A stretch of DNA of 64,000 nt from IMG/VR virus record IMGVR_UViG_3300023202_000383, positions 186,001 to 250,000 of that record; one strand, given 5' to 3'. A program made the position numbers and the translations under genes. How positions within the stretch are numbered: the stretch's first letter is position 1; the number at the start of each line of letters is the position of its first letter. This document shows positions 4,502 to 62,428 of the stretch, piece by piece. The notes beneath the pieces are model-generated. The model was given only the letters and a program-made list of their open reading frames with translations, did not search any database and had not been told where the DNA came from. Origin of the DNA: a virus.

Positions 4502-5992
4502 ATGGCTAGAATAGATTGGTCAAAGTATGATCAGGCTATAGTCGACTATATGCCTAATTATTGTGCAAAAGAGTTTAGAAATCTATATGCCCCAGATATA
4601 TCCTATAGTGCTATTTGCAATAGGGCGAAGTTTCTTGGTGTTAAACCAAAGAAATATAGAATTACTGAGAAGCACAAAAAAGCAACATCAAACGGTGCGA
4701 GAAAGAAGTTAAGTTCAGATCAATATGATTATATTTCAAAGAATCTTAATAAAATCCCAAGAACTGATATAGCAAAACACTTGGGGATATCATTGCATTT
4801 AGTTACTAGAGCGTCTAAAGATCTAGGAATCCAAATAGATACAAGGAAATGGAGAAAATTTAGTGCAGATAGGTCTAAAAAACATATTCATAAAGCCACG
4901 CAAGCTTCTGTCAATAAAATAATGAATATGTCAGAATCAGAAAAGGCCGAATATTCAAAGAAGAAATCCAATGATACAAAGAAATTATGGGAAGACCCAG
5001 AATACAGGCTAAAAGTCCGTAATGGAATAAAAGCTGCCTACAATAATACAGATTTGAGAGATAGACTAAGCACAATAGGCAAAGACAGATTTAAAAATGA
5101 TAAGAGCGTCAGAGATGCACTAATAAACAAAAGTTTTGAAACTAAGAATAGCAAATTAAACGATACAATATCTATAAAATTGGATAATTTAAATATAAAA
5201 CATGATAGAGAATTTGAAATAGGTAATTATTCGTTTGATTTTAGAGTTGGCAATATTCTATTAGAGGTTAATGGAAATTATTGGCATAATTTACCCGAAA
5301 ATATTAGAAATGATCGAGCGAAATCAACCTATATAGAAAAATATACAAATTACAAATTAAAGGTCTTGTGGGAAAATGAAGCAAAATCTGTAAGATGCAA
5401 TGATAGATTATTAGAACTGCTTGAAATAAAAAAGCCGGATCAAAAACAGATAAAATTAAATGAACTAACTATAGATTACGATGTTGATAAGCTTGAATCC
5501 AGAAAATTTCTTACTAGTTTTCATTATCTTGGCGACACAAGCAGGAAAAAATATGTCTTTGGGTTAAGACTGCATGGCGAGCTCGTTTCGGTAGTTGTAT
5601 TTGGTAATTTGATAAGGCAGAACATAGATAATAATTGTTTGGAATTGTCTAGAATGTGCAGGCATCCATACTTCTACAATAAAAATATGATGAGCTGGTT
5701 TCTGTCTAAATGCACAAAATATTTAAAATCGAATTACAATTACAGTGGCATTATAAGTTATGCTGACAAAAGGTACCATGATGGTGCTGTCTATAAAGCT
5801 AGTAATTGGGGCGACTGCGGGGACACCCAGCCAGACTATTGTTACATGACTGAGGATAATATTCCAATGCACAAGAAAACTCTATATAATAGAGCGGTGA
5901 AAAAGGGTATGAAAGAAAGAGAATATGCCGAACTTATGAACATGAAAAAGACAAAAATCGGTTCTAAACGCAAATTTAAGATTACATTTTGA
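4502..5992 (+). CDS. Homing-type nuclease fused to Mom-like domain (copy 1)
   Basis: 496 residues from the ATG at 4502, where an MARIDWSKYD start matches a winged-helix-like N-terminus. An in-frame ATG at 4439 would overlap the upstream gene. Domains: two helix-turn-helix-like segments (to about residue 110); NUMOD3-like repeats such as LWEDPEYRLKVRNGIKAAY; a Vsr/EDxHD-type nuclease core with FEIGNYSFDFRVGN, LLEVNGNYWH and KVLWENE (about 237-300); and from about residue 336 a Mom-family domain with FHYLG, ELSRM, SYADKRYHDGAVY and a PDYCY strand. Codon use is AT-rich. Probably a selfish gene that spreads by DNA cleavage. The role of the Mom-like part is unknown. Confidence 0.75.
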   Translation: MARIDWSKYDQAIVDYMPNYCAKEFRNLYAPDISYSAICNRAKFLGVKPKKYRITEKHKKATSNGARKKLSSDQYDYISKNLNKIPRTDIAKHLGISLHLVTRASKDLGIQIDTRKWRKFSADRSKKHIHKATQASVNKIMNMSESEKAEYSKKKSNDTKKLWEDPEYRLKVRNGIKAAYNNTDLRDRLSTIGKDRFKNDKSVRDALINKSFETKNSKLNDTISIKLDNLNIKHDREFEIGNYSFDFRVGNILLEVNGNYWHNLPENIRNDRAKSTYIEKYTNYKLKVLWENEAKSVRCNDRLLELLEIKKPDQKQIKLNELTIDYDVDKLESRKFLTSFHYLGDTSRKKYVFGLRLHGELVSVVVFGNLIRQNIDNNCLELSRMCRHPYFYNKNMMSWFLSKCTKYLKSNYNYSGIISYADKRYHDGAVYKASNWGDCGDTQPDYCYMTEDNIPMHKKTLYNRAVKKGMKEREYAELMNMKKTKIGSKRKFKITF

Positions 5993-6007
5993 TTTCCACG
6001 GTGGAAA
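5993..6007. promoter_or_regulatory. Palindrome TTTCCACGGTGGAAA, copy 1
   Basis: Perfect inverted repeat with 7-base arms and a single central G, directly before the sulfotransferase ATG and overlapping its probable ribosome-binding site. A longer copy with 9-base arms lies upstream of gmd at 32402-32420. It could be an operator or an RNA hairpin that controls translation. Confidence 0.45.
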
Positions 6008-6012
6008 CCAAT

Positions 6013-6669
6013 ATGCAAATAAAATGCCTCAATGTCATTGGTGTCGAGCGCAGTGGCACCAATTGGCTTGAGGTATTATTACGCGATAATGTATGTACCG
6101 AAGTTTGGCCGCATAAGAAGCACGAGCCCAGGCCGCAACTGTTTACCGGTTGGAATAGAGAATACGGCAACAAAATGAAAGATGCTGGATTCTCGAATGA
6201 TAATGTTGGTTATGTTGCAATAATCAAAAACCCCTGGGCATGGGCGGTTAGTTTTACTAAAAAAGTCAATTGGAAAGTAAAACCGAGATTTAATATAACT
6301 GGCAAAGAATTGCCTAATGATCTTAAATTATGCATTGAGCATTATTGGAATGGTAACAATCTTTCATATATAAATATGGCCGAGAAATATCCAGATAGAT
6401 TTATGGTGGTCACATATGACGATATGATTTTGAATGATTGGCGCAAGACTATCAGAAAAATAGCTTCACATTTTGATATTGAATTAAATAGGCCACTTAG
6501 GAATACGCCAAAAACTATAGGCGCAAATAGAAAGGTACATAATAAGAAATTCAACTACGATTACTATAACACAAAACAATATTTACAAAAGTTGACCAAG
6601 AGCGAGATAAGATGGATAAATAATAACGCAAATGCTCGTGTAATGACTTACTGCGGCTTCGCTCTATAG
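6013..6669 (+). CDS. Sulfotransferase-like protein
   Basis: 218 residues. The N-terminal motif GVERSGTNWLEVLL matches the PAPS 5'-phosphosulfate loop of sulfotransferases. IIKNPWAWAVSF at about residue 75 matches the 3'-phosphate motif (RxPxxxxxS type, here with KNP). Family members move sulfate from PAPS to a sugar or other hydroxyl group. The ATG at 6013 is preferred over the TTG at 5989 because GGTGGA is suitably spaced. Nearby genes act on sugars, so a glycan substrate is likely. Its 3' end overlaps a convergent gene by 119 bases, which is long for this genome. Confidence 0.7.
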   Translation: MQIKCLNVIGVERSGTNWLEVLLRDNVCTEVWPHKKHEPRPQLFTGWNREYGNKMKDAGFSNDNVGYVAIIKNPWAWAVSFTKKVNWKVKPRFNITGKELPNDLKLCIEHYWNGNNLSYINMAEKYPDRFMVVTYDDMILNDWRKTIRKIASHFDIELNRPLRNTPKTIGANRKVHNKKFNYDYYNTKQYLQKLTKSEIRWINNNANARVMTYCGFAL

Positions 6670-10329: not shown

Positions 10330-10366
10330 ATCCATATCCTTGGAGGTTGGACCATTTAAATACTAA

Positions 10367-10450
10367 TGCACGGAGAGGGACTTGAACCCCCAAGCCCTTT
10401 CGGGATCCGAGTTACAGTCGGAGATGCTACCAATTACGCTCTATCCGTGC
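10367..10450 (-). tRNA. tRNA-Tyr (GTA), class II
   Basis: Seven-pair acceptor stem (GCACGGA/TCCGTGC), discriminator A, anticodon arm TCCGA-CTGTAAC-TCGGA giving GTA, a long variable arm (TCCCGAAAGGG) and a standard T loop TTCAAGT. Bacterial tRNA-Tyr is class II, so the fold agrees with the anticodon. CCA is not encoded. Confidence 0.9.
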
Positions 10451-10469
10451 AGGCGTGAAAAGATAAATT

Positions 10470-11099
10470 ATGGAATTAAGACATCCTTTAAAGAATGATA
10501 TATGGGCTCTGGAACTATTCGACTTTATGGAGGGCGGCTTCTTTGTAGAAGCTGGTTGTACCAATGGAAAAAGCGGTTCTGCTACGTGGAATCTCGAAAA
10601 AGAATATGGATGGAATGGCCTGTGTGTGGAGCCAAACCACGTGATGTATGGGAAAATGATCAATGCTGGATGGAGATCATGTCATACAGCCAATGTTTGT
10701 TTATATGATAAGGAAGGTGAAATAACTTTTGCCGAATACCATGATGGCTCTGATGTATTCAGGAGCCATATTATAAATAACTGCAATGACAAAAATTTGC
10801 CAAAACCAGACAAGATATCAGTGAGACGATGCGTTTCGTTAACATCTCTATTGGATGAAATATCGGCACCAAAGATTATTCACTACTGCTGCTTAGATGT
10901 TGAAGGAGCCGAGTATAAGGTACTCAAAGGCATAGATTTCAATAAGTATAAGATATTGTCTATGTCTGTAGAAGTTAGTAAGAATTTCACTACTAAATGT
11001 GCTAAATTAATGCTTAAAAATGGGTATATTAGATCAACTAATAAATATACTGACAAACCATTTGAACAGTATTGGATTCACAATAGCATAACGCCCTAG
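10470..11099 (+). CDS. FkbM family methyltransferase
   Basis: 209 residues. FFVEAGCTNGKSGSATWNLE and WNGLCVEPNHVMY form the SAM-binding region. LDVEGAEYKVLKGIDF is the diagnostic FkbM motif. The family uses SAM to O-methylate sugars or other small groups. The gene sits between tRNA genes of opposite strand and its TAG stop lies inside the tRNA-Asp gene. A glycan substrate is inferred from the neighbours. Confidence 0.88.
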   Translation: MELRHPLKNDIWALELFDFMEGGFFVEAGCTNGKSGSATWNLEKEYGWNGLCVEPNHVMYGKMINAGWRSCHTANVCLYDKEGEITFAEYHDGSDVFRSHIINNCNDKNLPKPDKISVRRCVSLTSLLDEISAPKIIHYCCLDVEGAEYKVLKGIDFNKYKILSMSVEVSKNFTTKCAKLMLKNGYIRSTNKYTDKPFEQYWIHNSITP

Positions 11100-11164
11100 A
11101 CGGGGATCGAACCCGCAGCCTTTCGCGTGACAAGCGAATGATCTTCCACTTGATCTTCTAGGGC
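11092..11164 (-). tRNA. tRNA-Asp (GTC)
   Basis: Acceptor GCCCTAG/CTAGGGC with discriminator G, anticodon loop CTTGTCA giving GTC, T loop TTCGATC. G73 and GTC are normal for Asp. The stop codons of two protein genes, one on each strand, fall within it. Confidence 0.92.
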
Positions 11165-11542
11165 TTGTTCTCTATCTCTAAAATCGCATCAATCATGTCA
11201 TCAACCATCTCGAATGGGTCGAATGATGGATCGTGTGCTTCGTCCAACCTGAATTGTATTTCGTATTCAGCCTTTACGTCTACTGGCGATTTCCGTATTG
11301 CCGATAAGTCATAAAATGGGAATTCTGGTAGATCTTTTTCATATCTCTCTTATCGAATTGATCTTAGAACACCCAGCAATCCAGTCATTGCCAGATATCA
11401 AAAAGCATCCGTACAGACTAACTGACTCATGTACAACATTTAATTGCAGGTCTAAATATATCTTGTCACGCAACAGCTTGTGTATTGCGTCGACTAACGA
11501 GTTTTCTTTAGTATATGGCATAATATTCTCGCTATATTCCAA
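11158..11542 (-). pseudogene. DPxFDP-family small protein, frameshifted
   Basis: Two open segments join by a +1 shift near 11341, in a GAGAGA run. The first (MEYSENIMPYTKENSLVDAI onward) stops at 11339. The second continues RYEKDLPEFPFYDL and ends with DEAHDPSFDPFEMVDDMIDA. The joined product, about 125 residues, has the N-terminal helix and the C-terminal DPSFDP box of a family with about ten members in this window. Its stop lies in tRNA-Asp. It could be a true pseudogene, an assembly error, or programmed frameshifting. Confidence 0.55.
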
Positions 11543-12054
11543 GCGTCGCTGTCACCCCTATGGTGTGTTCCTTCCATTGGGATTTTGCAGATCTCGCATG
11601 CTTCTTTAAGGCCAACTTCTCTTCTCAGTCCCGCAGCTATCGCAAACAATGTTTTTGCATTCAAATGCCGAGACCCGAAAGGATACCATATCTTGTGGGC
11701 TCTACATACCTTGTTGAATTGATTGCGGTCGTAATCGCCCCAGCTCGCCCAGAGTCGAGCGGTTGTGTCGTACTCTTCTTTGAGTATGGCACATGCTTCG
11801 GCCAGTGATATTCCGTGTTCATCTATTTGCTCTTGAGTGATGGTTGTCAATTGGGTACAGAAATCACTAATGTTAGATCTGGTTGGGGTGACCAATATGC
11901 TTCTTTTTTCTTCAGGTCGAAGCGTTTTGACATTTATCGGGCATATCCCGATCTCTATGATGTCGCTTTCTTCCCCTCTCGGAGGCGATGTGTCCCAGCA
12001 AGTGGACTCGATGTCGACCACGATTATTTTATCTTGCTTCTTATGTCTACTCAT
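11494..12054 (-). CDS. DEDDh 3'-5' exonuclease
   Basis: 186 residues. IIVVDIESTCWD carries the first acidic pair, DIIEIGICPI and TTITQEQID follow, then SWGDYDRNQFNK with the second acid, and HHRGDSDAWNIARIL with the HxxxxD motif. It resembles the ERI1/KapD branch of RNase H-fold exonucleases, acting on RNA or DNA 3' ends. The start has a strong AAGGAGAT site. It overlaps the next, frameshifted gene by 49 bases. Confidence 0.88.
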   Translation of the reverse strand: MSRHKKQDKIIVVDIESTCWDTSPPRGEESDIIEIGICPINVKTLRPEEKRSILVTPTRSNISDFCTQLTTITQEQIDEHGISLAEACAILKEEYDTTARLWASWGDYDRNQFNKVCRAHKIWYPFGSRHLNAKTLFAIAAGLRREVGLKEACEICKIPMEGTHHRGDSDAWNIARILCHILKKTR

Positions 12055-12075
12055 AATATCTCCTTATTGATTGAA

Positions 12076-12146
12076 TCCGCCCGGATGGAGTTGAACCAAC
12101 GTCGGACCGTTATCAGCGGTCTGCTCTACCGTTGAGCTACGGGCGG
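12076..12146 (-). tRNA. tRNA-Ile (GAT)
   Basis: Acceptor CCGCCCG/CGGGCGG, discriminator A, anticodon loop CTGATAA giving GAT, T loop TTCAACT. It is 71 bases, slightly short in the D arm. First of four adjacent tRNAs. Confidence 0.9.
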
Positions 12147-12221
12147 TTAAACTTGATCTATTAACTTCTGAATTCTTTTATAGGAATTGTAACAACTCTG
12201 AAGCTAGATAGAAATAATAAA

Positions 12222-12304
12222 CACGCCGGGTAGGATTCGAACCTACAGGCCCTTTGCGGGCACGGTTTTGGAGACCGCTTGGCTCACCAATGCACTGCCG
12301 ACGT
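12222..12304 (-). tRNA. Class II tRNA with CCA anticodon (Trp codon; serine-like body)
   Basis: 83 bases. Acceptor ACGTCGG/CCGGCGT, discriminator G. Anticodon stem GCGGT/ACCGT with loop CTCCAAA, so positions 34-36 are CCA. A 15-base variable region GCCCGCAAAGGGCCT forms a four-pair stem. T arm GTAGG-TTCGAAT-CCTAC. Standard tRNA-Trp has a short variable loop. A long arm with G73 is the tRNA-Ser layout, and seryl-tRNA synthetase reads the arm rather than the anticodon. Its charging is therefore uncertain. Confidence 0.8.
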
Positions 12305-12318
12305 ATAAGAATGGGGAA

Positions 12319-12391
12319 TGGACCTGGAGGGATTCCAACCCTCGACCTCTTCCTTGCAAGGGAAGCGTTCTCGCTACTGAACTACAGGCCC
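12319..12391 (-). tRNA. tRNA-Ala (TGC)
   Basis: Acceptor GGGCCTG/CAGGTCC has the G3-U70 pair that identifies Ala. Anticodon stem CTTCC/GGAAG, loop CTTGCAA giving TGC, T loop TTGGAAT. Discriminator A. Confidence 0.93.
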
Positions 12392-12424
12392 AAAATCGCA
12401 AACCGCAATTGAAATTAAATCCAA

Positions 12425-12496
12425 TGGAGCCATTGGGATTCGAACCCAAGATTCTACCATGCCATGGTAGCGTGATCCCTGTTTCACCATAGCCCC
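12425..12496 (-). tRNA. tRNA-Ala (GGC)
   Basis: Acceptor GGGGCTA/TGGCTCC with the G3-U70 Ala identity pair, anticodon stem CTACC/GGTAG, loop ATGGCAT giving GGC, T loop TTCGAAT. A second alanine isoacceptor next to the TGC one is unusual in a phage. Confidence 0.88.
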
Positions 12497-12548
12497 ATGT
12501 GATAGGGCTTTTTATTACGCGACGCCCCGAATTCCACAAATACCGCAT

Positions 12549-13238
12549 TCAGTTTTTGTTTGCGTTGGCTTGTTCGCTAACATCCTCCCATTTTTCCCAT
12601 TCTGCTTCTAGTTTGTCTCTCGGCAAATCTGGTAGGTGGTGCATGTGTATTACTTTTGGTCTAGCAACTAATTTAAAGTTTGACGACCTAACATTCCATT
12701 CTGGCGAAAGTTTTTGTACGTTTATGTCTCTGTTGAATATTAGGTGGTTTAGAACAGATTGGTCCGATGTCCACCCTTCTTGTTCACCTATCTCATTATA
12801 TCTATCTATTGCTTCGTCTAAAACATTTATCACTCTGTCATTCATCCTATAAAATATTACACCAGTATTTAAGTGGCCTGGGTTATATCCCAAAAACAGT
12901 TTCTTGTCGTAATCAACACTCATATCTTTAGCTGCTGCGATATCAAAATTAAACCACATCACATCTTCTGGCCGACTTAGTATCTCGGTATCTGAATCGA
13001 AGAAAACTGTTTGGTCATATGGTGATGCTCGTAATGCTCGGAGTTTTGTCAAACCCCAATTATCATCCTGCTCTATTGGTCTCTGAGTTATTTTCATAGA
13101 TCCTGCCAGGGGCAGAATCGCGTCTGTGAATATGGTTATTGGTATATCACTCAGTTTCCTTAGGCTTGCTATGCTATGCAAAGCCCATCTATTGTACATT
13201 TCTCCAGTAGCAATATAAACAGCCCCATATGTCGCCAT
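12549..13238 (-). CDS. Glycosyltransferase, GT8-like
   Basis: 229 residues. VFFDSDTEI is the DxD metal motif, with HLNTGVIFYR, TSDQSVLNHLIF and VIHMHH in the order seen in GT8-type retaining galactosyl/glucosyltransferases. AGGAG lies upstream of the ATG. It probably acts on a cell or virion glycan together with the other transferases here. Confidence 0.75.
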   Translation of the reverse strand: MATYGAVYIATGEMYNRWALHSIASLRKLSDIPITIFTDAILPLAGSMKITQRPIEQDDNWGLTKLRALRASPYDQTVFFDSDTEILSRPEDVMWFNFDIAAAKDMSVDYDKKLFLGYNPGHLNTGVIFYRMNDRVINVLDEAIDRYNEIGEQEGWTSDQSVLNHLIFNRDINVQKLSPEWNVRSSNFKLVARPKVIHMHHLPDLPRDKLEAEWEKWEDVSEQANANKN

Positions 13239-13247
13239 TATTTAAGT

Positions 13248-13424
13248 TCATTCTCCTCTGATTGCTTTATTTATTGACTTAGCCATATCTTTTACTAACT
13301 TCTCTTGTAAGTCAGTACCATGCAGCTTTTTAAGATTTTGTGTGGTTTCAAATGTCCATACTCCCATCAACTTACGTTCTTTTACAAATCGTTTGTAAAT
13401 TTGATGTAGTAGACTTCCCCACAT
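13248..13424 (-). CDS. Small basic protein
   Basis: 58 residues, ATG 13424 to TGA 13248, starting MWGSLLHQIYKRFVKERKLM. It is helical and basic. It ends within the ribosome-binding region of the GT8-like gene, so the two appear co-translated. No family recognised. Confidence 0.5.
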   Translation of the reverse strand: MWGSLLHQIYKRFVKERKLMGVWTFETTQNLKKLHGTDLQEKLVKDMAKSINKAIRGE

Positions 13425-13429
13425 ATCAA

Positions 13430-13780
13430 TTAAATACCGTCGCGGCTGCGGCGGGTATCCGACTCCGCGAGTGAATCGGCGATTTCGGTATTCTTGTGTG
13501 GGTATTCGCTGTCGAACTCAACAAGTAGTGCCAGTTGACTCCGCTCGTAACGCAAATGAGTATTGTCTAGATGCTCGAGCAAATTCAGCCAGAGTTCGTA
13601 TCCCGCGCCAGTGACGTTGCAGTCTTTCGCTTCGACAACGAGCTTTTTCAGCGGGGATCGGCGCTCATCCAGTTCAATTGCGTATTCGTTTAGAATCTCT
13701 TGCACCTGCGAGGTGTCATCGAGCGTCCCCGAGAGCGTGATCCTCCGAGGTCCTCGAATGAGTTTGAATTTTTCAGCCAT
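13430..13780 (-). CDS. Hypothetical protein, possibly STAS-like, in GC-rich insert
   Basis: 116 residues from the ATG at 13780, which has AAGGAGAAG upstream. RITLSGTLDDTSQVQEIL and LKKLVVEAKDCNVTGAGYEL weakly recall a STAS or SpoIIAA-type fold. The GC content and codon choice (CTC, GAG, CGC) differ sharply from the neighbours, as in the fragment just upstream, which suggests recent transfer of 13430 to about 14285. Function not established. Confidence 0.55.
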   Translation of the reverse strand: MAEKFKLIRGPRRITLSGTLDDTSQVQEILNEYAIELDERRSPLKKLVVEAKDCNVTGAGYELWLNLLEHLDNTHLRYERSQLALLVEFDSEYPHKNTEIADSLAESDTRRSRDGI

Positions 13781-13854
13781 CTGTCTTCTCCTTCTCATTC
13801 TACGATTTTGGTTGAGACTCTTGGGATGCCGCAACCATTGTGATTGTAGCAGTT

Positions 13855-14292
13855 TCAGGTACTCTTAGGCCGAATGGATCGAAGATTCTTGTATTTCTCA
13901 AAATGAGGGCTGTCTTCTGGAATGAACAAATGATCGTGTGGCTGCATGTAGCGGATCGCGAAAGCAAGCACCGGACACGTGAGCACCGACTTCCACCGGG
14001 GATTGTAAACGGCGGGGGATCCACATCCATGGTAGAACTGGCCAAGCATGAGGCCCACATCTATAAAGATCGGCTTGATCTGGTCATATAATCTGTCAAT
14101 CGGCTCGCATGGTTTGCCTTTGGCTAGCGGGTAGCTGTCGAAAAACGTGAGAAAGGTCTTCAGGTTTGTCGGGTCGGCCGGCATGCCATCTCGGTCGACG
14201 TCATGTACGGGTTCTGTACGAAGAAAAAGCTCGATTTGTTCACACAGCTCTGTCTCAATATTGGCGCAGAAATTGTTGGGGCACGTTTCTTG
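13855..14292 (-). pseudogene. 5'-truncated gene, possibly DUF6875-like
   Basis: The frame is open from just after a TAA at 14293 down to 13855. Upstream of the first ATG (14184) it already reads like protein, beginning QETCPNNFCANIETELCEQ. Later segments PIFIDVGLMLGQFYHGCGSP and VLAFAIRYMQPHDHLF resemble a DUF6875-type pattern, a match I hold loosely. No start codon lies at the proper distance, and the sulfotransferase fragment abuts it. I read it as the 3' part of a transferred gene that lost its start. If the ATG at 14184 is used, a 109-residue product is possible. Confidence 0.5.
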
Positions 14293-14557
14293 TTATATCT
14301 TCAGCTGCTTCTTGTTGATAAAAATAACTTGATACTACTAAATCCCACGGGTTTCTTACGAATGCGAATTTGAAATATTCTTCCCAACACCCAATATGTT
14401 CTTTTAATTTAGACGCTGGTACATGGTGAGCATATGGCGAGTTAGGATCATTTTTTGATCGTATATCTGAATAATCATTCAGCGCATATCTAATGCTGCT
14501 ACTGCCGGTCTTAGGTATAGCAATGAATATGAATTTGTACTTGTGTGACAGCCTCAC
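14255..14557 (-). pseudogene. Sulfotransferase, 3'-truncated
   Basis: 100 residues from a GTG in a GTGA overlap with the upstream gene. KFIFIAIPKTGSSSIRYAL is a clear PAPS-binding P-loop and FAFVRNPWDLVVSSYFYQQ is the 3'-phosphate motif, as in carbohydrate sulfotransferase family 2. Family members continue for another 100 or more residues. Here the frame stops 25 residues later, exactly where base composition switches to GC-rich sequence. It is probably inactive and truncated by recombination. Confidence 0.65.
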
Positions 14558-14745
14558 TTGGCCAATTCTTCTAGCGGGGCACCATTTTCGTCTGCTATGA
14601 TAATTCTATGACCTTGTTCTTGGTGCTTCCTGATATAGTCGAAGGCCACCACCGATCTTCGTACAACTTCTCCCGGTGCGATATTTTGGTCTAATGCACG
14701 CTGTTCGACAATTTCTTCAGCTTCACCTGTTAGGTTAACATTCAT
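14554..14745 (-). CDS. Ribbon-helix-helix-like small DNA-binding protein
   Basis: 63 residues from the ATG at 14745, with GGAGG eight bases upstream. The pattern MNVNLTGEAEEIVEQRALDQ then APGEVVRRSVVAFDYI is a short strand plus two helices, as in Arc/MetJ or antitoxin-type RHH proteins, and is followed by RIIIADENG. A perfect 10-base inverted repeat covers its ribosome-binding site, which suggests self-regulation. No toxin gene lies beside it. Confidence 0.6.
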   Translation of the reverse strand: MNVNLTGEAEEIVEQRALDQNIAPGEVVRRSVVAFDYIRKHQEQGHRIIIADENGAPLEELAK

Positions 14746-14752
14746 CTTCTTA

Positions 14753-14777
14753 TCCTCCACAATATATTTGTGGAGGA
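14753..14777. promoter_or_regulatory. Inverted repeat covering the RHH ribosome-binding site
   Basis: Arms TCCTCCACAA and TTGTGGAGGA, perfect over 10 bases with a 5-base AT spacer. In the minus-strand RNA the right arm contains the GGAGGA that sets the start of the RHH gene, so the hairpin would hide it. As DNA it could also be the operator for the RHH protein. Confidence 0.55.
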
Positions 14778-15170
14778 CTATTTGGAACTACATCTCTTTG
14801 CTATTGCTTCATAATAGATTTTGGCTTTTTCATACATATCTCTTTCCAGCCAGTGCAGTCTGCAAAATACACCGAGCAGAAAGATTCTCTTAAAGTTGTT
14901 CTCCATCTCCCCGTCGTAACCATATGCGAATTTTTTCTTTTCTATATCGAACACGACTGACGAAACTGGGTCCAGCTCGGCCTCTACTCGTCCATCGGGA
15001 AGTGCTGTGAGCGTACTGTATGATACACCGCACGCCGGATCATCGACAGAAATATAAAGCTTTTTGGCTTCCGGGTTTTCTATATCATATTTTATTTTAT
15101 CATCATCAATCCAAATCAAGTTCATACCAAATGGGCCAGCGTCAGTGGATATTGTTATGCTAGTGTTCAT
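14778..15170 (-). CDS. DPDA-family small protein
   Basis: 130 residues. LIWIDDDKIKYDIENPEAKK followed by LYISV is the family signature, and VVFDIEKKKFAYGYDG is the second conserved strand pair. C-terminal helices end the chain. It is one of four adjacent related genes at 14778-16482, which overlap or nearly touch each other, so they arose by tandem duplication and divergence. Function unknown. Confidence 0.6.
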   Translation of the reverse strand: MNTSITISTDAGPFGMNLIWIDDDKIKYDIENPEAKKLYISVDDPACGVSYSTLTALPDGRVEAELDPVSSVVFDIEKKKFAYGYDGEMENNFKRIFLLGVFCRLHWLERDMYEKAKIYYEAIAKRCSSK

Positions 15171-15534
15171 TATTGCTCGCTATTAATTCCAGATATTCTT
15201 TGGCACTTTTATTAAATAATTTTATGTTGTGCTTATCAAATATTATCGGAAAGTTTGTGAGGCTAGTATACACTCTGCTGTTTCTGGTCTGCGCCCATAC
15301 TCTGTTTTCAATATCTATTAAATATCCACATTCTACTAAGTAATCGAATGATTTACCAAACGATACATAAATATGGCGTGCCTTCGGATTATCAACATCG
15401 AACCTTACATTTATATTATCTAGCCATGCCAATTTTATGTCATATAAATCGCCACCAACATAGCATTTATATACGCCATTTATGGCAGTAGGTGCGCCGT
15501 CAACGTCAATCAGAAAAATATTACTCATTGCCAT
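15160..15534 (-). CDS. DPDA-family small protein
   Basis: 124 residues; an ATG two codons later (15528) is an alternative start. LAWLDNINVRFDVDNPKARH then IYVSF is the signature, and GYLIDIENRVWAQTR the second strand pair. The N-terminus has its own beta segment. It overlaps both neighbours in the tandem array. Function unknown. Confidence 0.6.
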   Translation of the reverse strand: MAMSNIFLIDVDGAPTAINGVYKCYVGGDLYDIKLAWLDNINVRFDVDNPKARHIYVSFGKSFDYLVECGYLIDIENRVWAQTRNSRVYTSLTNFPIIFDKHNIKLFNKSAKEYLELIASNNEH

Positions 15535-15910
15535 AGTATTTATTCGTGTTCTTTTTGAGAAACGTTTCTGTAGTTTCTAATAGTTGCTCAAAATACTCTC
15601 TTCTGAATCCGTTTTTTGACCATTTGGTGCTTATGTCTTCCCACCCCTTAATTTGTGGTCTTACATCATGTATTGTGTGTTTATGTGTACCACCTGATTT
15701 TCTAAGCTCTCCATCATAATGGACTGCAGAGATCCGTTTGTTAATGATGTCAATTACCCAGCATATAGGCTTATGGATTTGCACACACACTAATTCAGCG
15801 TCCGGATTGTCAACGTCTTTTCTGACATATCCATTGTCATCAATCCATACTAATTCCATTTCGTTGATATATAATACCCTATTGAACAGGCTGTATTTTC
15901 TTGAACTCAT
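15521..15910 (-). CDS. DPDA-family small protein
   Basis: 129 residues from the ATG at 15910, chosen because a longer start overlaps the zinc-ribbon gene by 71 bases; MELVWIDD at 15862 is another possibility. LVWIDDNGYVRKDVDNPDAE then LVCVQI, and WVIDIINKRISAVHYDG, are clear family motifs. C-terminal helical part. Function unknown. Confidence 0.6.
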   Translation of the reverse strand: MSSRKYSLFNRVLYINEMELVWIDDNGYVRKDVDNPDAELVCVQIHKPICWVIDIINKRISAVHYDGELRKSGGTHKHTIHDVRPQIKGWEDISTKWSKNGFRREYFEQLLETTETFLKKNTNKYYGNE

Positions 15911-16184
15911 TGGTATCGCCCTCGTGTCCGCAATCAGGGCAGCTACCAATCATTTCGTTCATTGATGTGTCTGGGTGTATTTCTTTGCATGTGGCTTTTT
16001 CAGAACCACAATTTGGGCATTTGTAATATGTAGGAGTAAACTCCATATGTGTGATTGACCCGTCATCTTCGATATTCAAGCCTAGGGAATTTGCGAATTT
16101 TTTGAACCCAGGTGTAATCGATTCTGGGTCTAGCTTATTTGTTTCCTCTGACAGTACCTTATCAAGTTTATCTTTATAGTCCAT
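15879..16184 (-). CDS. Zinc-ribbon protein
   Basis: 101 residues. CPNCGSEKATC and CPDCGHEGD give two CxxC pairs 25-30 residues apart, as in TFIIS-type zinc ribbons. The N-terminal half is helical. AGGGA lies before the ATG. It sits within the DPDA tandem array and overlaps its neighbours on both sides. A role in transcription or nucleic-acid binding is possible but not shown. Confidence 0.65.
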   Translation of the reverse strand: MDYKDKLDKVLSEETNKLDPESITPGFKKFANSLGLNIEDDGSITHMEFTPTYYKCPNCGSEKATCKEIHPDTSMNEMIGSCPDCGHEGDTNEFKKIQPVQ

Positions 16185-16482
16185 CGTTGTTCCCTAAACG
16201 TTTTAAAGAAAATTCAGCGTCTGCTATATATGGACCTATAGTAGCAGGATCTGACTCCCAGCCGCATATTTGCATGGCGTCTGGCCCATCGGTTATTTTG
16301 GCTGGGCCATTGTAATATTCCATGACTCTAGATGCTCTCTTATTTTCTATATCTACTACAACTATTGATGTCCAATAGTTAATTAGAACACATATAGCTT
16401 CTGAATCCGGATCATCAATGTCATGGCGGATCCGCCCATCGTCATCAACCCATACTAAACAGTTGTCCAATTTATAAAACAT
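16174..16482 (-). CDS. DPDA-family small protein (clearest copy)
   Basis: 102 residues. CLVWVDDDGRIRHDIDDPDS then EAICVLI is the most complete form of the signature, followed by IVVVDIENKRASRVM. It starts 44 bases after the tRNA-Asn gene with no evident ribosome-binding site and overlaps the zinc-ribbon gene by 11 bases. Function unknown. Confidence 0.65.
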   Translation of the reverse strand: MFYKLDNCLVWVDDDGRIRHDIDDPDSEAICVLINYWTSIVVVDIENKRASRVMEYYNGPAKITDGPDAMQICGWESDPATIGPYIADAEFSLKRLGNNDGL

Positions 16483-16525
16483 TATTGATTGGAGGTTCGA
16501 AACTGTGCTTTGCCATATATTTGAA

Positions 16526-16796: not shown

Positions 16797-16855
16797 ATAT
16801 ATTGATTTAGTTGGTGGCTGCCTTACCAAGTCGGCCATCCGCCAAAATTCATCGA

Positions 16856-16960: not shown

Positions 16961-16968
16961 GGCTTCCT

Positions 16969-17442: not shown

Positions 17443-17466
17443 GTGCTATTAGTTCGGGCAGCTCTA

Positions 17467-19154: not shown

Positions 19155-19181
19155 GCCGCCTCCCCGATAACTACTGATACA

Positions 19182-20690: not shown

Positions 20691-20692
20691 AA

Positions 20693-49995: not shown

Positions 49996-50062
49996 TTTAA
50001 ATCCTCTATGTGTATTATACATTATATTTGAACGAGGGGACATCGAGGCAGAAGCATCACAA

Positions 50063-50098
50063 TTTTTGCTGAAACGTCGCAGCGCGACAAGACGCTGC
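50063..50098 (+). promoter_or_regulatory. Recurring leader element (before 50139)
   Basis: TTTTTGCTGAAACGTCGCAG then CGCGACAAGACGCTGC. GCAGCG and CGCTGC can pair over six bases. Leads to the MoxR ATPase gene. Confidence 0.45.
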
Positions 50099-50138
50099 AA
50101 GAAGTCTCTCACCGCGTCTCAAAGATAAGGAGAAGCAA

Positions 50139-51371
50139 ATGCGGGTGAAGCAACTTAAAGAAGCGACCATGTTGTGTCGCGAAGCTGGCGTCACAGCTTT
50201 CGTATGGGGCCACCGTGGCGTTGGTAAGTCCTCGATCATTCGGCAGGTCTGCGATGAACACCAGATGGGATGCATCGACCTTCGATGCAGCCAGCTGGAA
50301 GCGTCCGACCTCCGTGGTCTCCCCGACCGGATCGACGGTCGTACGGTGTTCTGTCCTCCGGAAGACATGCCGCGTGGCGGTCTGTCGTTCGAGGAATACG
50401 CCAAGCGACTGGAAGACGATCCGGATAACGCCTACAAGCTGGCAGTCGAACTGCAGCCGCAGATCAACAACGGCATCCTGTTCCTGGACGAGTTGAATCG
50501 TGCACAAGATGACGTGATTCAGGCTGTGTTCCAGCTGGTTCTGGACCGCCGCCTGGGTCAGTACGCCCTGCCTCCGGGCTGGTCGGTGGTCGTCGCGGGC
50601 AACTACATGGAAGGTTACATGACCAACGGGTTCACCGATGCAGCCTTCATCGATCGATTCTGCCACATGCAGCTGTCGGTCGGTGAGTCGACCCTCGAAG
50701 AGTGGGTCAACTACATGTCCAAGGTCCACGAGCAGGGTGCGACGCAGGTGATCGAATTCGCCTCGCAGAATGTCAAGCATCTCGACGGCGAAGTCAAGGG
50801 TGAGATGGGCTTCTCGGTCCAACCCTCCCGACGTTCGTGGGAAGCGGTTGTCCGTGTCGAAGCCGCCTTCAAGGAATCCAAGCACTCCTACTCCGAAGAT
50901 ACCCGCCACGCTGTTTTGGCTGGTTTGCTCGGATGGGAACTGGCGACGTCCTATTCGCGATACAACTGCCCGGTCCGTCCAGACATGGTCATCAAGCAGG
51001 GTGTCAAGTCCCTCGAAGGCAAGCTGGCCAAGCTCAACCGCAACCAGCTGACCGGTCTGATGTGGGGCTTGGCTTCCAAGCTCAAGAACAAGGTGGACGA
51101 AGAGAAGGAAGGCAAGATCGCACTGGACTTCGTCCGGTGGATGTGCAAGCACGCGAACGACAAGGATATCGCAGTGGCGTTCTGTAACGTCATGGTCGGC
51201 GGTGACGAGTTCGTCCGCGAGCGGCACGCGATGATCTCCAACCCGAACATCGCCAACCTGTTCAAGAAGTACCGCAACAAGGATGCCAAGAAGACGTTCA
51301 TCGACCGTCTGACGGACGATCCGGAACTGCAGGAGCTGGTGTCCCGAACCGCCTGGGGCAAGGAGAAGTAA
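50139..51371 (+). CDS. MoxR-type AAA+ ATPase
   Basis: 410 residues. FVWGHRGVGKSSIIRQV is Walker A, ILFLDELNRAQDDVIQAVFQ is Walker B with the arginine-region sensor, and GWSVVVAGNYMEGYMTNGF is sensor 1. The C-terminal helical lid is long. MoxR ATPases work with VWA proteins as chaperones for complex or cofactor assembly; a metallopeptidase-like/VWA protein is encoded at 59240. Codons are GC-rich, unlike most neighbours. A large hairpin follows the stop. Confidence 0.88.
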   Translation: MRVKQLKEATMLCREAGVTAFVWGHRGVGKSSIIRQVCDEHQMGCIDLRCSQLEASDLRGLPDRIDGRTVFCPPEDMPRGGLSFEEYAKRLEDDPDNAYKLAVELQPQINNGILFLDELNRAQDDVIQAVFQLVLDRRLGQYALPPGWSVVVAGNYMEGYMTNGFTDAAFIDRFCHMQLSVGESTLEEWVNYMSKVHEQGATQVIEFASQNVKHLDGEVKGEMGFSVQPSRRSWEAVVRVEAAFKESKHSYSEDTRHAVLAGLLGWELATSYSRYNCPVRPDMVIKQGVKSLEGKLAKLNRNQLTGLMWGLASKLKNKVDEEKEGKIALDFVRWMCKHANDKDIAVAFCNVMVGGDEFVRERHAMISNPNIANLFKKYRNKDAKKTFIDRLTDDPELQELVSRTAWGKEK

Positions 51372-57478: not shown

Positions 57479-57705
57479 CCCCAGACACCTTGCAACAACC
57501 AGAGATTGAGCCACAGCAGCTTACCGCTCGTAGACAAATCTTAACTTCTTGCTACCCCATACCTTCACATAGCCATTTGTTTCAGCGTATTCACGCTCTT
57601 TCATTTTCATCTTCACAGCACGCTGATAGAGCGTTTTCTTATGCATTGTCCACCCATTCTCATCAGTATACCAATAACTTGGTGGTACATCTCCGTCGGG
57701 CTTGA
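57475..57705 (+). pseudogene. Possible gene start cut by the 57521 homing gene
   Basis: ATG 57475 overlaps the upstream TGA (ATGA) in the normal manner. About 16-20 codons (MTPDTLQQPEIEPQQLTARR) are GC-rich, but from about 57525 the frame runs antisense through the homing gene and its product looks artificial. It may be the stump of a gene split by insertion. Confidence 0.3.
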
Positions 57706-59023
57706 AATTCAACGACTTATACACAGCACCATCATGATTAAAAGTGGTATCACAATACGATATTATTAACTTGTACTTATCTGGCAGTTTTTTTAGACAC
57801 CTGCTAACAAACCACGACGCGAAATTCTTCTTCTGATAGCGAGGGTGAATACATAACCTAGATAATTCGCGGCATTCTTTCTTCTTATATCTGCCAGTCC
57901 TAATATTGTGACGTACCAACGGTGAAAAAACGCAAACAGCAATCAACTCTTCTTCAAGATAGGCACCATAACAAATTCCGCCTCGACCAGCATCGGATAG
58001 GTAATGATATTTCGAAAGAAGAAGCCTGTATTCGCTAGCTGGACAGTCATTAATTTCTACATTATTGAAATCGTATTCGACAGTATTCAGTTTAGTAATT
58101 CCGAGCCAATATTTGAGCAATTCGACCACTTTATTATAATTGTGAAATTCATGCTCCCAAATGCATTTCAATTCGTACTGATTTGGGAAGTTATTTGCGA
58201 CGTATGATGCCTTCCGTTTATCATTAGCATGCCCTCGATCTGTAGAATGCCAGTATTCGCCTTGGCATTCTATAAGGAGATCTGGTGCGTTCTGCCTAGG
58301 GATGACGCAATCAAAGCTATATGGCCCGATTTTGGTCTGTAAATCGTCTTGTTTGCTATTGTGCTCTCTGTAATAAGAAATATTTAAGTCGTCTAGGATA
58401 GAATAGAGTGTTTCTTGTATAGATGAGACCTTTGGCATATTATCTCTAGCTAGAGACAAGGACTCGCAGATTTTGGCTCTATATTCGGGATTCTCCCATG
58501 ACTTTTTAGTTGCTTCTGATATCTTACGCCTATATTCTTGATTCCCCCACGCCTCTTTGGATACCTGCCCCAAAATTTCTGTCATTTTGTCTCTGTATTT
58601 CCCATCCAACCACCTCTTTTTGCCGAGTTCTGACATCTTTTGTTTAAATTCTGGGGTAACTTTCTTGCGGTTAATCTCTGTCATTCTTTCAGCGAAATCG
58701 TCACTCTGCCTAAAAGCACTCATCCTGTCTCGTAATTCAGGATCATTCCAAATTTCTTTGCTATTGGTTACAATTTTGTTTCTATACCTATCATCCTTCC
58801 ATGCTTCTTTTGCTCCTTTCCTAGATGCTTTTCTTTTCTCTGGATCGTTTGCTACACACTTGGCGCATTCCCATGGTATTTGATTTCTTATAACCTCGGA
58901 TTTCTTGCGAATGGATTTTGTGCCCTCGCTGCCGCAATTATCACATTCAACGACTACCTTTGGCCTATGTCCAGATAGATCTATTCTATTAAATTTTTCT
59001 AGCGTCTTATTCCAATTTATCAT
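57521..59023 (-). CDS. Homing-type nuclease fused to Mom-like domain (copy 3)
   Basis: 500 residues. Residues 27-56 hold two Cys pairs (CDNCGSEGTK, WECAKCV). Then five or more NUMOD3-like repeats (KEAWKDDRYRNKI, KSWENPEYRAKI), then a Vsr/EDxHD-like core IGPYSFDCVIPRQNAPDLLI with ECQGEYWHS and CIWEHEF (about 232-294). The Mom-like domain at 335-460 has KYHYLSDAGRGGI, ELSRLCIHP, SYCDTTFNHDGAVYKSLNF. Nearly the same domain order as copy 4 at 60911. Confidence 0.78.
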   Translation of the reverse strand: MINWNKTLEKFNRIDLSGHRPKVVVECDNCGSEGTKSIRKKSEVIRNQIPWECAKCVANDPEKRKASRKGAKEAWKDDRYRNKIVTNSKEIWNDPELRDRMSAFRQSDDFAERMTEINRKKVTPEFKQKMSELGKKRWLDGKYRDKMTEILGQVSKEAWGNQEYRRKISEATKKSWENPEYRAKICESLSLARDNMPKVSSIQETLYSILDDLNISYYREHNSKQDDLQTKIGPYSFDCVIPRQNAPDLLIECQGEYWHSTDRGHANDKRKASYVANNFPNQYELKCIWEHEFHNYNKVVELLKYWLGITKLNTVEYDFNNVEINDCPASEYRLLLSKYHYLSDAGRGGICYGAYLEEELIAVCVFSPLVRHNIRTGRYKKKECRELSRLCIHPRYQKKNFASWFVSRCLKKLPDKYKLIISYCDTTFNHDGAVYKSLNFKPDGDVPPSYWYTDENGWTMHKKTLYQRAVKMKMKEREYAETNGYVKVWGSKKLRFVYER

Positions 59024-59174: not shown

Positions 59175-59210
59175 ATTGTTGCCGCCATGCTGCAGCGACA
59201 CAGCAGCGTG
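59175..59210 (+). promoter_or_regulatory. Recurring leader element (before 59240)
   Basis: TTGTTGCCGCCATGCTGCAG then CGACACAGCAGCG. GCTGC and GCAGC can pair. Upstream of the VWA gene, as the element at 50063 is upstream of MoxR. Confidence 0.45.
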
Positions 59211-59239
59211 TGAGGGAACGTCTTTCTGGAGAACATGCT

Positions 59240-60868
59240 ATGATGACACCTGAGGAAAAGTTGGTAGCTGCACGATGTCGTTTGATGACACGTGAGCCAT
59301 GGTACGGGCATATGGCCATGATGATCACGTGGAAGAAGTCCGACATGAATTGGGTCGATGATGAAGCGGCCCGATCGATCGGCATTAAGATCGCCAGCAC
59401 CGGCGAGATTACTGCTTACTGGTATCAGGATTGGGTTGAGCGGATGTCGCTCAAGCAGATCTACGGTACTATCGAACACATGATCAATCACCTGGTTCGC
59501 CTGCACCCGGTTCGGGCTGGTGAGCATGAGAAGGCTCCGTGGAACATCGCGACCGACATGGCCGTAAATGGTTCTGCCAACAGCCCCCACATCGGATATA
59601 AGGACGAGAACGGCAAGACCGTCCTCCCTTGCTCATATGATGTGTCCAAGGGAAGCGACACCTGGACAATCCCCAACTACGACGACGCTTTGGTGTTCGC
59701 AGACAAGAAGGGGATCGGCGTCGACAATGTTAAGCCGCACGGCGACAGTCTCGTGTTCGTGCCCAATGACTGGCCTAGTGACGAATCAGCCGAATTCTAC
59801 TACGAGAAGTTGATCGAGCAATTCGGTGACGATGGCCAGCAGGGCCAGCAGGGCCAGCAGTGCGATGGTGAAGGCCAGGACCAATGCCAAACGTGCGGTG
59901 GCAGCGGGCAAGCTCCCGACGACGAAGATGGCGACGAAGACCAGCAGGGCCAAGGCCAAGGTCAGGGTCAGGATGATGACCAGCAGGGCCAGGGCCAAGG
60001 CCAAGGTCAGGGTCAGGATGATGACCAGCAGGGCCAGGGTGGTGGCGGTGGCCAACCCCAGGGCGAATGCAGCGACAGCAGCGGTGAAAGTGATGGTCAG
60101 GGAAGCGGCAGCCCGTGCCCCGATTGTCAGGGAACCGGCAAGGAAGGCGGTCAAAGCGGCGGCAACGGCCAGGCCAAGCACAACTACGGCCCATTCCAGA
60201 ATAACGCTGTCGACGACCACAGCACGTGGACACAGTCCGATATCAGCCACGACGAGGCACGGCAGCTGGTCCATGATATGGTCAAGGAAGCGACCGACAA
60301 GAGCCAGGGTCACACACCCGGTCACTTGGCACAGGCGATCGACGAACTCAAGAAACCGATCGTCCGGTGGCGTGAAATCCTGCGTCAGATCATCGGCACG
60401 CACGTTGGCAACCGTCGCAAGACGTATGCCCGACGCAACCGCCGATATGATATCTGGGGTATCAAGGGCATCAGCCATCACGCAGCCGCAACCGTGTCGG
60501 TGATCATCGACACGTCCGGATCAATCGGAACCAAGGAACTGGAACAGTTCTTCGGTGAAATCGAGGCGATCAGTTACCGTGCCAAGGTCAACGTTCTGCA
60601 GTGGGACCACGCATTCCAGGGCTTCGACCAGTACCGCCGAGGTGACTGGAAGAAGATCACTGCTAATGGACGTGGGGGCACGGATATGGCAGCCCCGGTC
60701 AAGTGGTTAGAAGAGAATGGCCAGGTCGCTGATCTGCAGATTATGCTGACCGATGGCTATTGCAATTGGCCCGCGCCACGTGAGTATCCGATGGTGTTCT
60801 GCATCACGACCGACAATACTTCGGAACCTGAGTGGGGTGTGTCGATCCGCATGAAGATCACTGAGTGA
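59240..60868 (+). CDS. Metallopeptidase-like / VWA-domain protein (DUF2201-like)
   Basis: 542 residues from the ATG at 59240 with TGGAG upstream. The N-terminal 150 residues resemble the peptidase-like part of DUF2201 (MINHLVRLHPVRAGEHEKAP with WNIATDMAVN). Residues about 200-295 are acidic Gln-Gly repeats flanked by CxxCGGSG and CPDCQGTGK, DnaJ-like zinc motifs. The C-terminal VWA-like domain has SVIIDTSGSIGTKEL (MIDAS DxSxS), GGTDMAAPV and MLTDGYCN. Partner of MoxR ATPases. GC-rich codons as for MoxR. Confidence 0.82.
   Translation: MMTPEEKLVAARCRLMTREPWYGHMAMMITWKKSDMNWVDDEAARSIGIKIASTGEITAYWYQDWVERMSLKQIYGTIEHMINHLVRLHPVRAGEHEKAPWNIATDMAVNGSANSPHIGYKDENGKTVLPCSYDVSKGSDTWTIPNYDDALVFADKKGIGVDNVKPHGDSLVFVPNDWPSDESAEFYYEKLIEQFGDDGQQGQQGQQCDGEGQDQCQTCGGSGQAPDDEDGDEDQQGQGQGQGQDDDQQGQGQGQGQGQDDDQQGQGGGGGQPQGECSDSSGESDGQGSGSPCPDCQGTGKEGGQSGGNGQAKHNYGPFQNNAVDDHSTWTQSDISHDEARQLVHDMVKEATDKSQGHTPGHLAQAIDELKKPIVRWREILRQIIGTHVGNRRKTYARRNRRYDIWGIKGISHHAAATVSVIIDTSGSIGTKELEQFFGEIEAISYRAKVNVLQWDHAFQGFDQYRRGDWKKITANGRGGTDMAAPVKWLEENGQVADLQIMLTDGYCNWPAPREYPMVFCITTDNTSEPEWGVSIRMKITE
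59835..60060 (+). repeat. Gln-Gly minisatellite in the VWA gene
   Basis: Tandem units of GGCCAGCAG and GGTCAGGGTCAGGATGATGA encode QGQGQGQDDDQQ twice in near-identical form. The copies are similar at DNA level, so they may expand or contract. Confidence 0.7.
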
Positions 60869-60910
60869 TATCCATGTGATGACCGCAGCCATGTCGGTCA
60901 AATATATTTC

Positions 60911-62428
60911 ATGATCGATTGGGAAGCAAGCAAAGCTGAGTTCGGAACCACCATGGGTCTAAAAGGCAATAGACCCATGGTGGTTGTTTTATGTGACAAG
61001 TGCAAGTCTAAAGGATCTATTCGGATTCGCAACAAATCTCTGATCAAAAAGACTGGCGACCGCACATGGCTGTGTAGATCATGCGTGAATAACCAACCTA
61101 ACAAGATAGCAAAACTTAAGAATGCTTCTAAAAAATTATGGGAAAATGATAAGTATAGATCAAAAAATTTAAGCTCAGTCAGAAGTGCAGAAAATCGCAA
61201 AAAGCTTAGCGACAATTGGTATAAAAATATGAAATCAATTGTCGCCAGTGACGAATATAAATCAAAGCAAAGAAAATCATCAATCAAATCATGGCGTGAT
61301 AGTAAGTATGCAAGCAAGATTATCAAGTCATCAACAGAGATGTGGAATAATGCTTCTTTACGTGACAAGATGTTGTCATCTAGAAGAACTGATAAATATA
61401 GAGAGAATCAGCGTATAAAGGCAATAGAACGGTGGCAAGACCCTAATTATATAAAGAAGCAGGACTCTGCAAAAGCTAGAGCGGTTAGATCACCAGAGAA
61501 CTTGGCGAAATTGCGAGCCAACCAGAAAAAAGTGTCATCAATACAAAATATGTTGTATTCAATCCTCGATGATTTAGAAGTTAAATATTATAGAGAATAC
61601 AATGATAAAATAGATGATCACGAGGTCAAGATTGGTCCATATAACTTCGACTGTTTGGTGCCACGTGACAACAAGCCAGACTTGCTAATAGAATGTCAGG
61701 GCGAATACTGGCATTCTATTAGAGAAGGCAGCGATAAAGCTAAAGCATCATATATATCAAACAACCACAGCGATAAGTATGAGCTTAAATATATATGGGA
61801 GCATGAATTTCATAATAAGAATAGAGTTGTTGAGCTTGTTAAATATTGGTTAGGCATTGCCGCGATTGACTCAATAGAATTCGATTTTGATTCAGTTGAG
61901 ATAAGAAAATGTCCACCAAAAGATTATAAACTTTTGCTTGGCAAATATCATTATCTTCCAACAGCAGGTCGCGGTGGCATCGCTTTTGGTGCATATTTGG
62001 AGTCCGGGTTAATAGCTGTATGTATTTTTTCTCCGATGCCTCGGCAAAACATGCCATATAATAATAAATCGCATAGAGAATTGTCTAGGTTATGTATTCA
62101 CCCTCGCTACCAGAAGAAGAATTTTGCGTCGTGGTTTGTGTCGCGGTGTATCAAATTGCTACCGACAAAATACAAAACAATAATATCATATTGTGATACT
62201 ACATTCAACCATGATGGGGCGGTCTATAAAGCATGCAATTTCAAATTGGATGGTGAAGTTAAGCCAGATTATTGGTATGCTAGCAAAAGCGGCTGGATTA
62301 TGCATAAAAGAACAATGTATGGGCATGCAACAAAGATGAAGAAAAATGAATCCGATTATGCCAAAGAGATGGGCTACAAGAAAATATGGGGCAGCAAGAA
62401 ATTAAGATTTGTTTTTGACAGATCATGA
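60911..62428 (+). CDS. Homing-type nuclease fused to Mom-like domain (copy 4)
   Basis: 505 residues. CDKCKSKGSIRIRNKS and WLCRSCV give a zinc module (28-58). NUMOD3-like repeats follow to about 195. Core IGPYNFDCLVPRDNKPDLLI with ECQGEYWHS and YIWEHEF lies at about 242-300. The Mom-like domain (about 344-460) has KYHYLPTAGRGGIAFGAYL, ELSRLCIHPRYQKKNFASWF, SYCDTTFNHDGAVYKACNF. Close paralog of copy 3, on the other strand of the same locus, flanking the VWA gene. Confidence 0.78.
   Translation: MIDWEASKAEFGTTMGLKGNRPMVVVLCDKCKSKGSIRIRNKSLIKKTGDRTWLCRSCVNNQPNKIAKLKNASKKLWENDKYRSKNLSSVRSAENRKKLSDNWYKNMKSIVASDEYKSKQRKSSIKSWRDSKYASKIIKSSTEMWNNASLRDKMLSSRRTDKYRENQRIKAIERWQDPNYIKKQDSAKARAVRSPENLAKLRANQKKVSSIQNMLYSILDDLEVKYYREYNDKIDDHEVKIGPYNFDCLVPRDNKPDLLIECQGEYWHSIREGSDKAKASYISNNHSDKYELKYIWEHEFHNKNRVVELVKYWLGIAAIDSIEFDFDSVEIRKCPPKDYKLLLGKYHYLPTAGRGGIAFGAYLESGLIAVCIFSPMPRQNMPYNNKSHRELSRLCIHPRYQKKNFASWFVSRCIKLLPTKYKTIISYCDTTFNHDGAVYKACNFKLDGEVKPDYWYASKSGWIMHKRTMYGHATKMKKNESDYAKEMGYKKIWGSKKLRFVFDRS

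Follow-up and report, generated by a model that had tools for sequence, protein, structure and literature searches.

Nucleases fused to a Mom-family domain in a 256.5-kb virus record: probable free-standing homing endonucleases

Domains of the four fusion proteins

The window analyzed here is a stretch of 64,000 nucleotides (nts) from the IMG/VR virus record IMGVR_UViG_3300023202_000383, which covers positions 186001-250000 of this 256.5-kb record (virus labelled G000). Four genes in the window, designated below by their lower coordinates (4439, 48334, 57521 and 60911; Table 1), encode proteins that join a nuclease part to a C-terminal domain of the Mom family. They had been reported in an earlier note made from the sequence alone, and all four are real open reading frames (ORFs); two of the starts given there, 4502 and 49995, proved to be internal ATG codons of longer frames beginning at 4439 (ATG) and 50112 (GTG).

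The C-terminal domain of all four genes belongs to the Mom family by sequence profile and, for the 60911 protein, by fold. The Pfam family PF25680 (Mom) matched the 4439, 57521 and 60911 proteins at E-values of 2e-19, 1.3e-17 and 5.2e-19, so that three of the four window proteins, 48334 excepted, lie over its cut-off. The same three were matched at 4.5e-25 or better by PHROG 1384 (Mom-like DNA modification protein), which did not match 48334. A Mom profile of 32 sequences, three of them from the window and 48334 not among these, detected the 48334 copy at 8e-11 and, when run against PDB sequences, found Mu Mom (8bv8) at 1.9e-9. In an alignment of 55 members (A2; three from the window), Pfam Mom (E 0.001) and PHROG 1384 were present in every member; 48 members also matched PHROG 3339 (homing endonuclease). 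NCBIfam gave nothing above its cut-offs for the fusion proteins; 8bv8 was missed by a single-sequence PDB search with the Mom tail and reached only at E 0.018 with the whole 60911 protein. An AlphaFold2 model of the 60911 protein, built with 55 sequences, had a mean pLDDT of 87.4 and a pTM of 0.53, the latter making the relative placement of its domains uncertain. Foldseek ranked 8bv8, entitled "phage Mu protein Mom inactive mutant S124A", first among PDB entries for this model (E 3.4e-9; next GNAT at 8.4e-6), and VIA-align likewise placed it first (Z 16.0 over 157 residues; runner-up Z 14.4). The shared C-terminal Mom-family/GNAT domain claimed in the earlier note, together with the match to Mu Mom that it proposed to seek by structure search, was thus recovered. 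Chance resemblance was rejected because Pfam and PHROGs agree with both profiles and with both fold searches, and an ordinary GNAT acetyltransferase because generic GNAT scores are weaker than those for Mom.

The nuclease core of three copies (not 48334) is of the I-Bth0305I/Vsr type, in agreement with the Vsr/EDxHD-type core recognized earlier. Searched against the PDB, the nuclease profile (A3) matched 3r3p (I-Bth0305I), the catalytic domain of a homing endonuclease according to its title, at 3.2e-9. The core of 60911 modelled alone reached a pLDDT of 89.9; Foldseek with this nuclease-domain model returned nothing at E <= 0.001, and when its candidates were re-aligned, the top two were 3r3p (Z 12.2, 93 residues, 2.4 A) and Vsr (1cw0, Z 10.6). 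Residues D247, E261, H268 and D275 are conserved in the nuclease cores and may correspond to the EDxHD catalytic motif. I-Bth0305I, which the fusions resemble in this core, is encoded within an intron of a Bacillus phage and is not known to carry a Mom domain, whereas the window genes look free-standing: an Rfam scan of the window and its neighbours at gathering thresholds detected tRNAs only and no intron.

The 48334 protein matched phrog_3322 (E 5.8e-29) over two stretches, which points to HNH-like repeats; Pfam showed no HNH family in it and the nuclease-core profile gave no match. The two HNH domains previously assigned to this copy are therefore backed by the PHROG match and not by Pfam. 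The NUMOD3-like repeats proposed for the other copies were not recovered, since no Pfam NUMOD3 was found up to E 1 in the four window proteins, though WxDxxYRxK repeats are discernible by eye in the fusion proteins. PHROG 3339 spans both nuclease and tail in 60911 (residues 42-504), 57521 (106-499) and 4439 (160-506), and the tail only in 48334 (406-565). No methyltransferase was found among the 25 listed of the 28 Pfam families that match the 55 aligned members.

Table 1. Fusion genes and adjoining genes in the window
Feature	Position	Strand	Description
Nuclease-Mom fusion	4439-5992	+	517 aa (alternative start 4502, 496 aa); N-terminal part; I-Bth0305I/Vsr-type core ~5126-5464; Mom domain ~5459-5989
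HNH-Mom fusion	48334-50112	-	592 aa (alternative start 49995); HNH/endonuclease-VII-like repeats ~48898-49716; Mom domain ~48346-48882
Nuclease-Mom fusion	57521-59023	-	500 aa; Cys-rich N-terminus and helical repeats; nuclease core ~58061-58450; Mom domain ~57524-58066
Nuclease-Mom fusion	60911-62428	+	505 aa; N-terminal part 60911-61510; nuclease core ~61511-61885; Mom domain ~61886-62425
Gene adjoining copy 4439	3402-4460	+	Site A; homologues in seven related records differently occupied
Presumed MoxR-type AAA ATPase gene adjoining copy 48334	50139-51371	+	phrog_1297 ATPase; Pfam AAA
vWA/metallopeptidase-like gene with a Mom fusion on either side	59210-60868	+	Pfam DUF2201, DUF2201_N

Conservation, copy number and mobility of the family

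An alignment-based scan of IMG/VR found 209 stretches, of which 79 loci were kept. For residue counts, 79 proteins were aligned with Mu Mom and numbered after the 231-aa Mu protein (positions are ten lower than in the 241-aa translation; the offset is ours). L028 and L060 were left out because their ORFs do not span the match; near-identical relatives stay among the 79, and L047 and L075 are truncated where their contigs stop. H48 is kept in all 79 proteins, R101 and D139 in 78 each, G146 and Y149 in 77 each, and Y49 and E98 in 75 each (with Asp at E98 in the other four). By our mapping, the position aligned to S124 of the 8bv8 title holds Ser in 72 and Thr in 6. In the 60911 protein the conserved Mom residues include His347, Glu390, Arg393, Ser407, Asp429 and Tyr439. 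We presume these to be the residues identified by mutagenesis of Mu Mom; that S124A is inactive is taken from the PDB title. In a joint count of 78 rows, with the HNH copy excluded and with Tyr, Leu or Met at Y49, Asp at E98 and E261 and Thr at S114 tolerated, all seven Mom positions were present in 74, the four nuclease positions in 76 and both sets in 72. Mean pairwise identity over 1485 pairs was 0.469 for the Mom domain, 0.423 for the nuclease and 0.21 for the N-terminus, and the identities of nuclease and Mom domain correlate (r = 0.71). The close pair L076/L077 gave a dN of 0.007 and a dS of 0.156 in the Mom domain. The domain is thus under purifying selection and at least as conserved as the nuclease, and its conserved residues suggest that it is probably an active adenine methylcarbamoylase.

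The whole record contains seven Pfam Mom matches (two below cut-off), and each lies in an ORF of 486-611 aa; all are therefore fused, and a stand-alone Mom is absent among the seven. Three further nuclease paralogues (L022:3200-4897, L023:1350-3017 and L023:13537-15375) carry most of the C-terminal motif by alignment, giving ten copies in this virus, eight of which are recovered by the Mom profile. Twelve further records, picked for holding such a locus, have 1 to 8 Pfam Mom matches each. GC content is below that of both 1.5-kb flanks in all 15 such genes of G000 and its relative G001 (the right flank of L023:13537-15375 is only 126 nt); for 4439 it is 0.32, compared with 0.435 and 0.383 in its flanks.

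A pattern-based scan of 84,980 cellular genomes, which may miss relatives, produced seven hits. Three of them are strong and fall on contigs that are filed as Lokiarchaeota and have virion genes in common with this virus; the four weak ones cover query residues 197-301, 55-269, 234-310 and 83-268, leaving the Mom part uncovered. A cellular restriction-modification system was rejected on these grounds: hits are few, the strong ones are on virus-like contigs and the weak ones fall outside Mom. The Candidatus Lokiarchaeota contigs (L103, L104 and L105) share genes with this virus, for example at 52% identity over 958 aa and 87% over 119 aa, and appear to be virus contigs in metagenome-assembled genomes, by mis-binning or through a host link. 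Scans of viral contigs with the proteins of 3402-4460, 46561-47568 and 60911-62428 found no relative, probably because such a scan needs exact peptides.

The occupancy of corresponding sites was then compared among related virus records. These are akin at the protein level only, so that the compared sites are not base-exact, and the two profiles used (Mom and nuclease) are blind to other nuclease types. With the vWA gene as query, six of 13 records searched had a strong homologue; the counts omit weak matches in G007, G008 and G009 and the matchless G004, G006, G013 and G014. The site upstream of this gene holds a Mom fusion in G003 (L024, 54.6% identical to 57521) and a Mom-less nuclease in G005; in G001, G010, G011 and G012 neither profile finds a gene there. 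The downstream site, occupied by 60911 in the window, holds no gene of either profile in any of the six. An HNH-Mom gene beside MoxR was present in one of six records (G003, 44.6% identity to 48334), a weak match in G007 being omitted. At site A, homologues of 3402-4460 in seven records are accompanied by a Mom fusion downstream in G001 and upstream in G004, and in G010 by a different, Mom-less nuclease (L122:2525-3457; Pfam TnsA-like plus a NUMOD3 motif); the stretches examined in G003, G005, G006 and G012 contain no gene of either profile. Two more sites (L070 and L090) look empty in the relative L093, with flanks 66-75% identical. In a tree made by a quick method and showing long branches, the row nearest to the 60911 protein is L025 (support 87), far from the vWA gene in G003. 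The 4439 copy is not placed beside the G001 copy at the same site, which may reflect independent arrival or fast divergence, two histories that the tree does not distinguish. Elsewhere in G005, a lone Mom fragment lies in a frame of 114 aa at 248328-248627.

Between L066 and L068, each of eight 200-nt bins of the Mom-fused gene shows 98-100% identity (dS within the gene ~0.02-0.03), against mostly 79-92% in the first 2 kb of either flank, where one bin just downstream reaches 96.5%. Among Campylobacter phages, compared at the DNA level, the gene for Hef34 of phage CPX is missing from two of 40 matching records, in which the two flanks (92-98% identical) join between two genes and so form a precise empty site. 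Taken together, the ten copies, the patchily occupied sites, the Campylobacter empty site and the L066/L068 conversion bear out the earlier suggestion of a selfish element, and the family behaves like selfish mobile homing genes.

In the DNA helicase gene at 36328-38415, residues 230-409 match a LAGLIDADG homing endonuclease (phrog_11023) and are flanked by helicase parts; this insert looks like an intein. At L023:3061-5903 (G000:C1 ~65060-67902) there is a split gene that is uninterrupted in G001 (L020:5410-6195): a first half ending in a Hint/intein-like region (Pfam Vint, E 4.9e-5, below cut-off) is followed by a TnsA-like nuclease ORF and the second half, an arrangement that would fit either a fractured gene or a split intein. 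Its homologue at L104:496-4898 has a Hef-type nuclease on one side and a Mom-fused one on the other, and the locus appears to be a hot spot for different homing genes. Directly behind 4439, the gene at 5989-6669 had no PHROG match at E 0.001 and is presumably sulfotransferase-like, judging from an N-terminal motif. Nine tRNA genes on the minus strand occupy 10366-20979.

Relation to Hef proteins and other known systems

Over most of their length, Hef34 and the Hef of Lv5cm match PHROG 3339 and 559, and so does the 60911 protein; the match of 4439 to both is partial, that of 57521 is to 3339 only, and 48334 matches 3339 with its tail alone. Similarity to the Campylobacter Hefs is low (~26%). 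Hef34 matches PHROG 1384 at 2.3e-9 and has no Pfam Mom match up to E 0.1, while the Lv5cm Hef, unlike Hef34, has no PHROG 1384 match at E 0.001. In contrast to the window class, position Y49 is Leu in the four Hefs checked. Hef-like free-standing homing endonucleases are listed in the LIMEstone paper, in passages without mention of Mom (PMC3296691).

The fold of the C-terminal domain and its key residues are those of phage Mu Mom (8bv8); the Mu protein is stand-alone with a partner gene, Com, whereas the window domain is a nuclease tail. The earlier note knew of no description of such fusions. This does not hold, since PHROG 3339 already covers nuclease and tail, and Iyer et al. (2021; PMC7824862) state that Mom domains of jumbo phages are typically fused to nucleases of the restriction endonuclease (REase) fold. 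The fusion as such is therefore known. The passages concerned count five momylating enzymes in PA5oct and interpret the fusions as a restriction-modification pair; the term "homing endonuclease" is absent from the main text of that paper. By their description, the jumbo-phage proteins are like ours in combining a Mom-family GNAT with a REase-fold nuclease and in occurring several times per genome, while an HNH-Mom fusion is described here and not in those passages. The name MoxR used above draws in part on a pairing described in the same paper. Literature searches, which did not cover subscription papers, revealed no paper that we recognised as joining Mom with homing endonucleases. To this the present analysis adds the homing behaviour of Mom-fused genes, their link to Hef and the HNH-Mom version.

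Possible modes of action

Based on domains, folds, conserved residues, purifying selection and the mobility of the family by comparison, all computational, we consider it likely that all four genes encode free-standing homing endonucleases, each with a Mom tail that is probably active. The likeliest mode of action of such proteins would be to cut or mark the DNA. The fast-diverging N-terminal DNA-binding part, with its Cys-rich or helix-turn-helix modules and helical repeats, would pick the target. The I-Bth0305I/Vsr-type core in three copies, or the HNH-like repeats in one, would then cut the DNA of a sister phage in or close to the corresponding unoccupied site, into which repair would copy the gene. 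The Mom domain would modify adenine as a methylcarbamoylase. We propose that the DNA-binding part also directs this modification, so that resident DNA near the target would be spared; the phage may in addition gain resistance to restriction. Cleavage, modification and self-protection as the benefit are steps that we infer. Such a mechanism is plausible. That one polypeptide unites nuclease and methylcarbamoylase at a single target, marking its own DNA and cutting unmarked alleles, is put forward tentatively, with less than even confidence; equally tentative is the idea that it amounts to homing with its own chemical self-immunity, joined to both I-Bth0305I-type and HNH-like nucleases.

Several observations weigh against this interpretation. 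The Pfam Mom match of 48334 (E 0.0043) is below the curated cut-off. At the vWA-upstream site of G005, a nuclease of the same type (L131:4361-5416) ends before Mom, and no Mom remnant was found in six frames of the neighbouring DNA; a gene of this kind can thus persist without Mom. The conversion signature was seen in one of five pairs compared and for none of the window's own copies, and the other four were unable to show it because their flanks are mostly more than 95% identical. The precise empty site comes from the distant Campylobacter Hef branch, whose tail is outside Pfam Mom, and the Campylobacter flanks show no special divergence at the junction and are uninformative on this point. 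In the Hefs of AM101 and of the T-even phage Lv5cm, the latter encoded between nrdA and nrdB, D139 is replaced by Asn and Y49 by Leu, so the domain may lose its activity in part of the family. The Hef of the T-even phage U5 is described as cleaving nrdB (PMC2988022), and homing in that branch may therefore not need an intact Mom site.

The substitutions in Lv5cm and AM101 and the Mom-less nuclease of G005 would also fit a Mom-fold domain that has lost its enzymatic function and instead adds specificity to a homing nuclease by binding DNA or flipping bases. We regard this as quite unlikely, given that all seven Mom positions are retained in 74 of 78 rows, including the serine mapped to the inactive 8bv8 mutant, and that the domain is under purifying selection. 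If the domain is active, its benefit could instead be general anti-restriction, as cargo that makes the selfish gene useful to the phage rather than protecting its own target. Mu Mom shields phage DNA from restriction according to the account in PMC6483171, and phages of Listeria, Staphylococcus and Enterococcus encode proteins annotated as Mom-like. For this purpose, however, numerous copies that differ in their N-terminal parts would presumably be redundant, and we consider this alternative somewhat unlikely.

The published prediction for the same architecture (PMC7824862) would make the proteins single-chain, restriction-modification-like weapons, in which the phage genome is modified by Mom, DNA of the host or of competitors that lacks the modification is destroyed by the nuclease, and mobility is secondary. 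The joint conservation of both active sites and the parallel divergence of the two domains (r = 0.71) are in line with it. We nevertheless judge it unlikely, because one virus carries up to ten divergent copies, the same sites are patchily occupied across relatives, and the conversion signature in one pair (L066/L068) is confined to the gene and its edge. Moreover, with their differing N-terminal parts, the copies should each see another sequence, and the U5 Hef is described as a homing endonuclease (PMC2988022).

An active Mom tail would mean that a sizeable group of phage homing endonucleases (209 IMG/VR stretches, 79 loci kept) are cut-and-modify enzymes. This is relevant to the question of how free-standing homing genes spare the genome that carries them, and to the source of adenine hypermodification in phage DNA. 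It is also another way to interpret these fusions, next to the restriction-modification pair of the published account.

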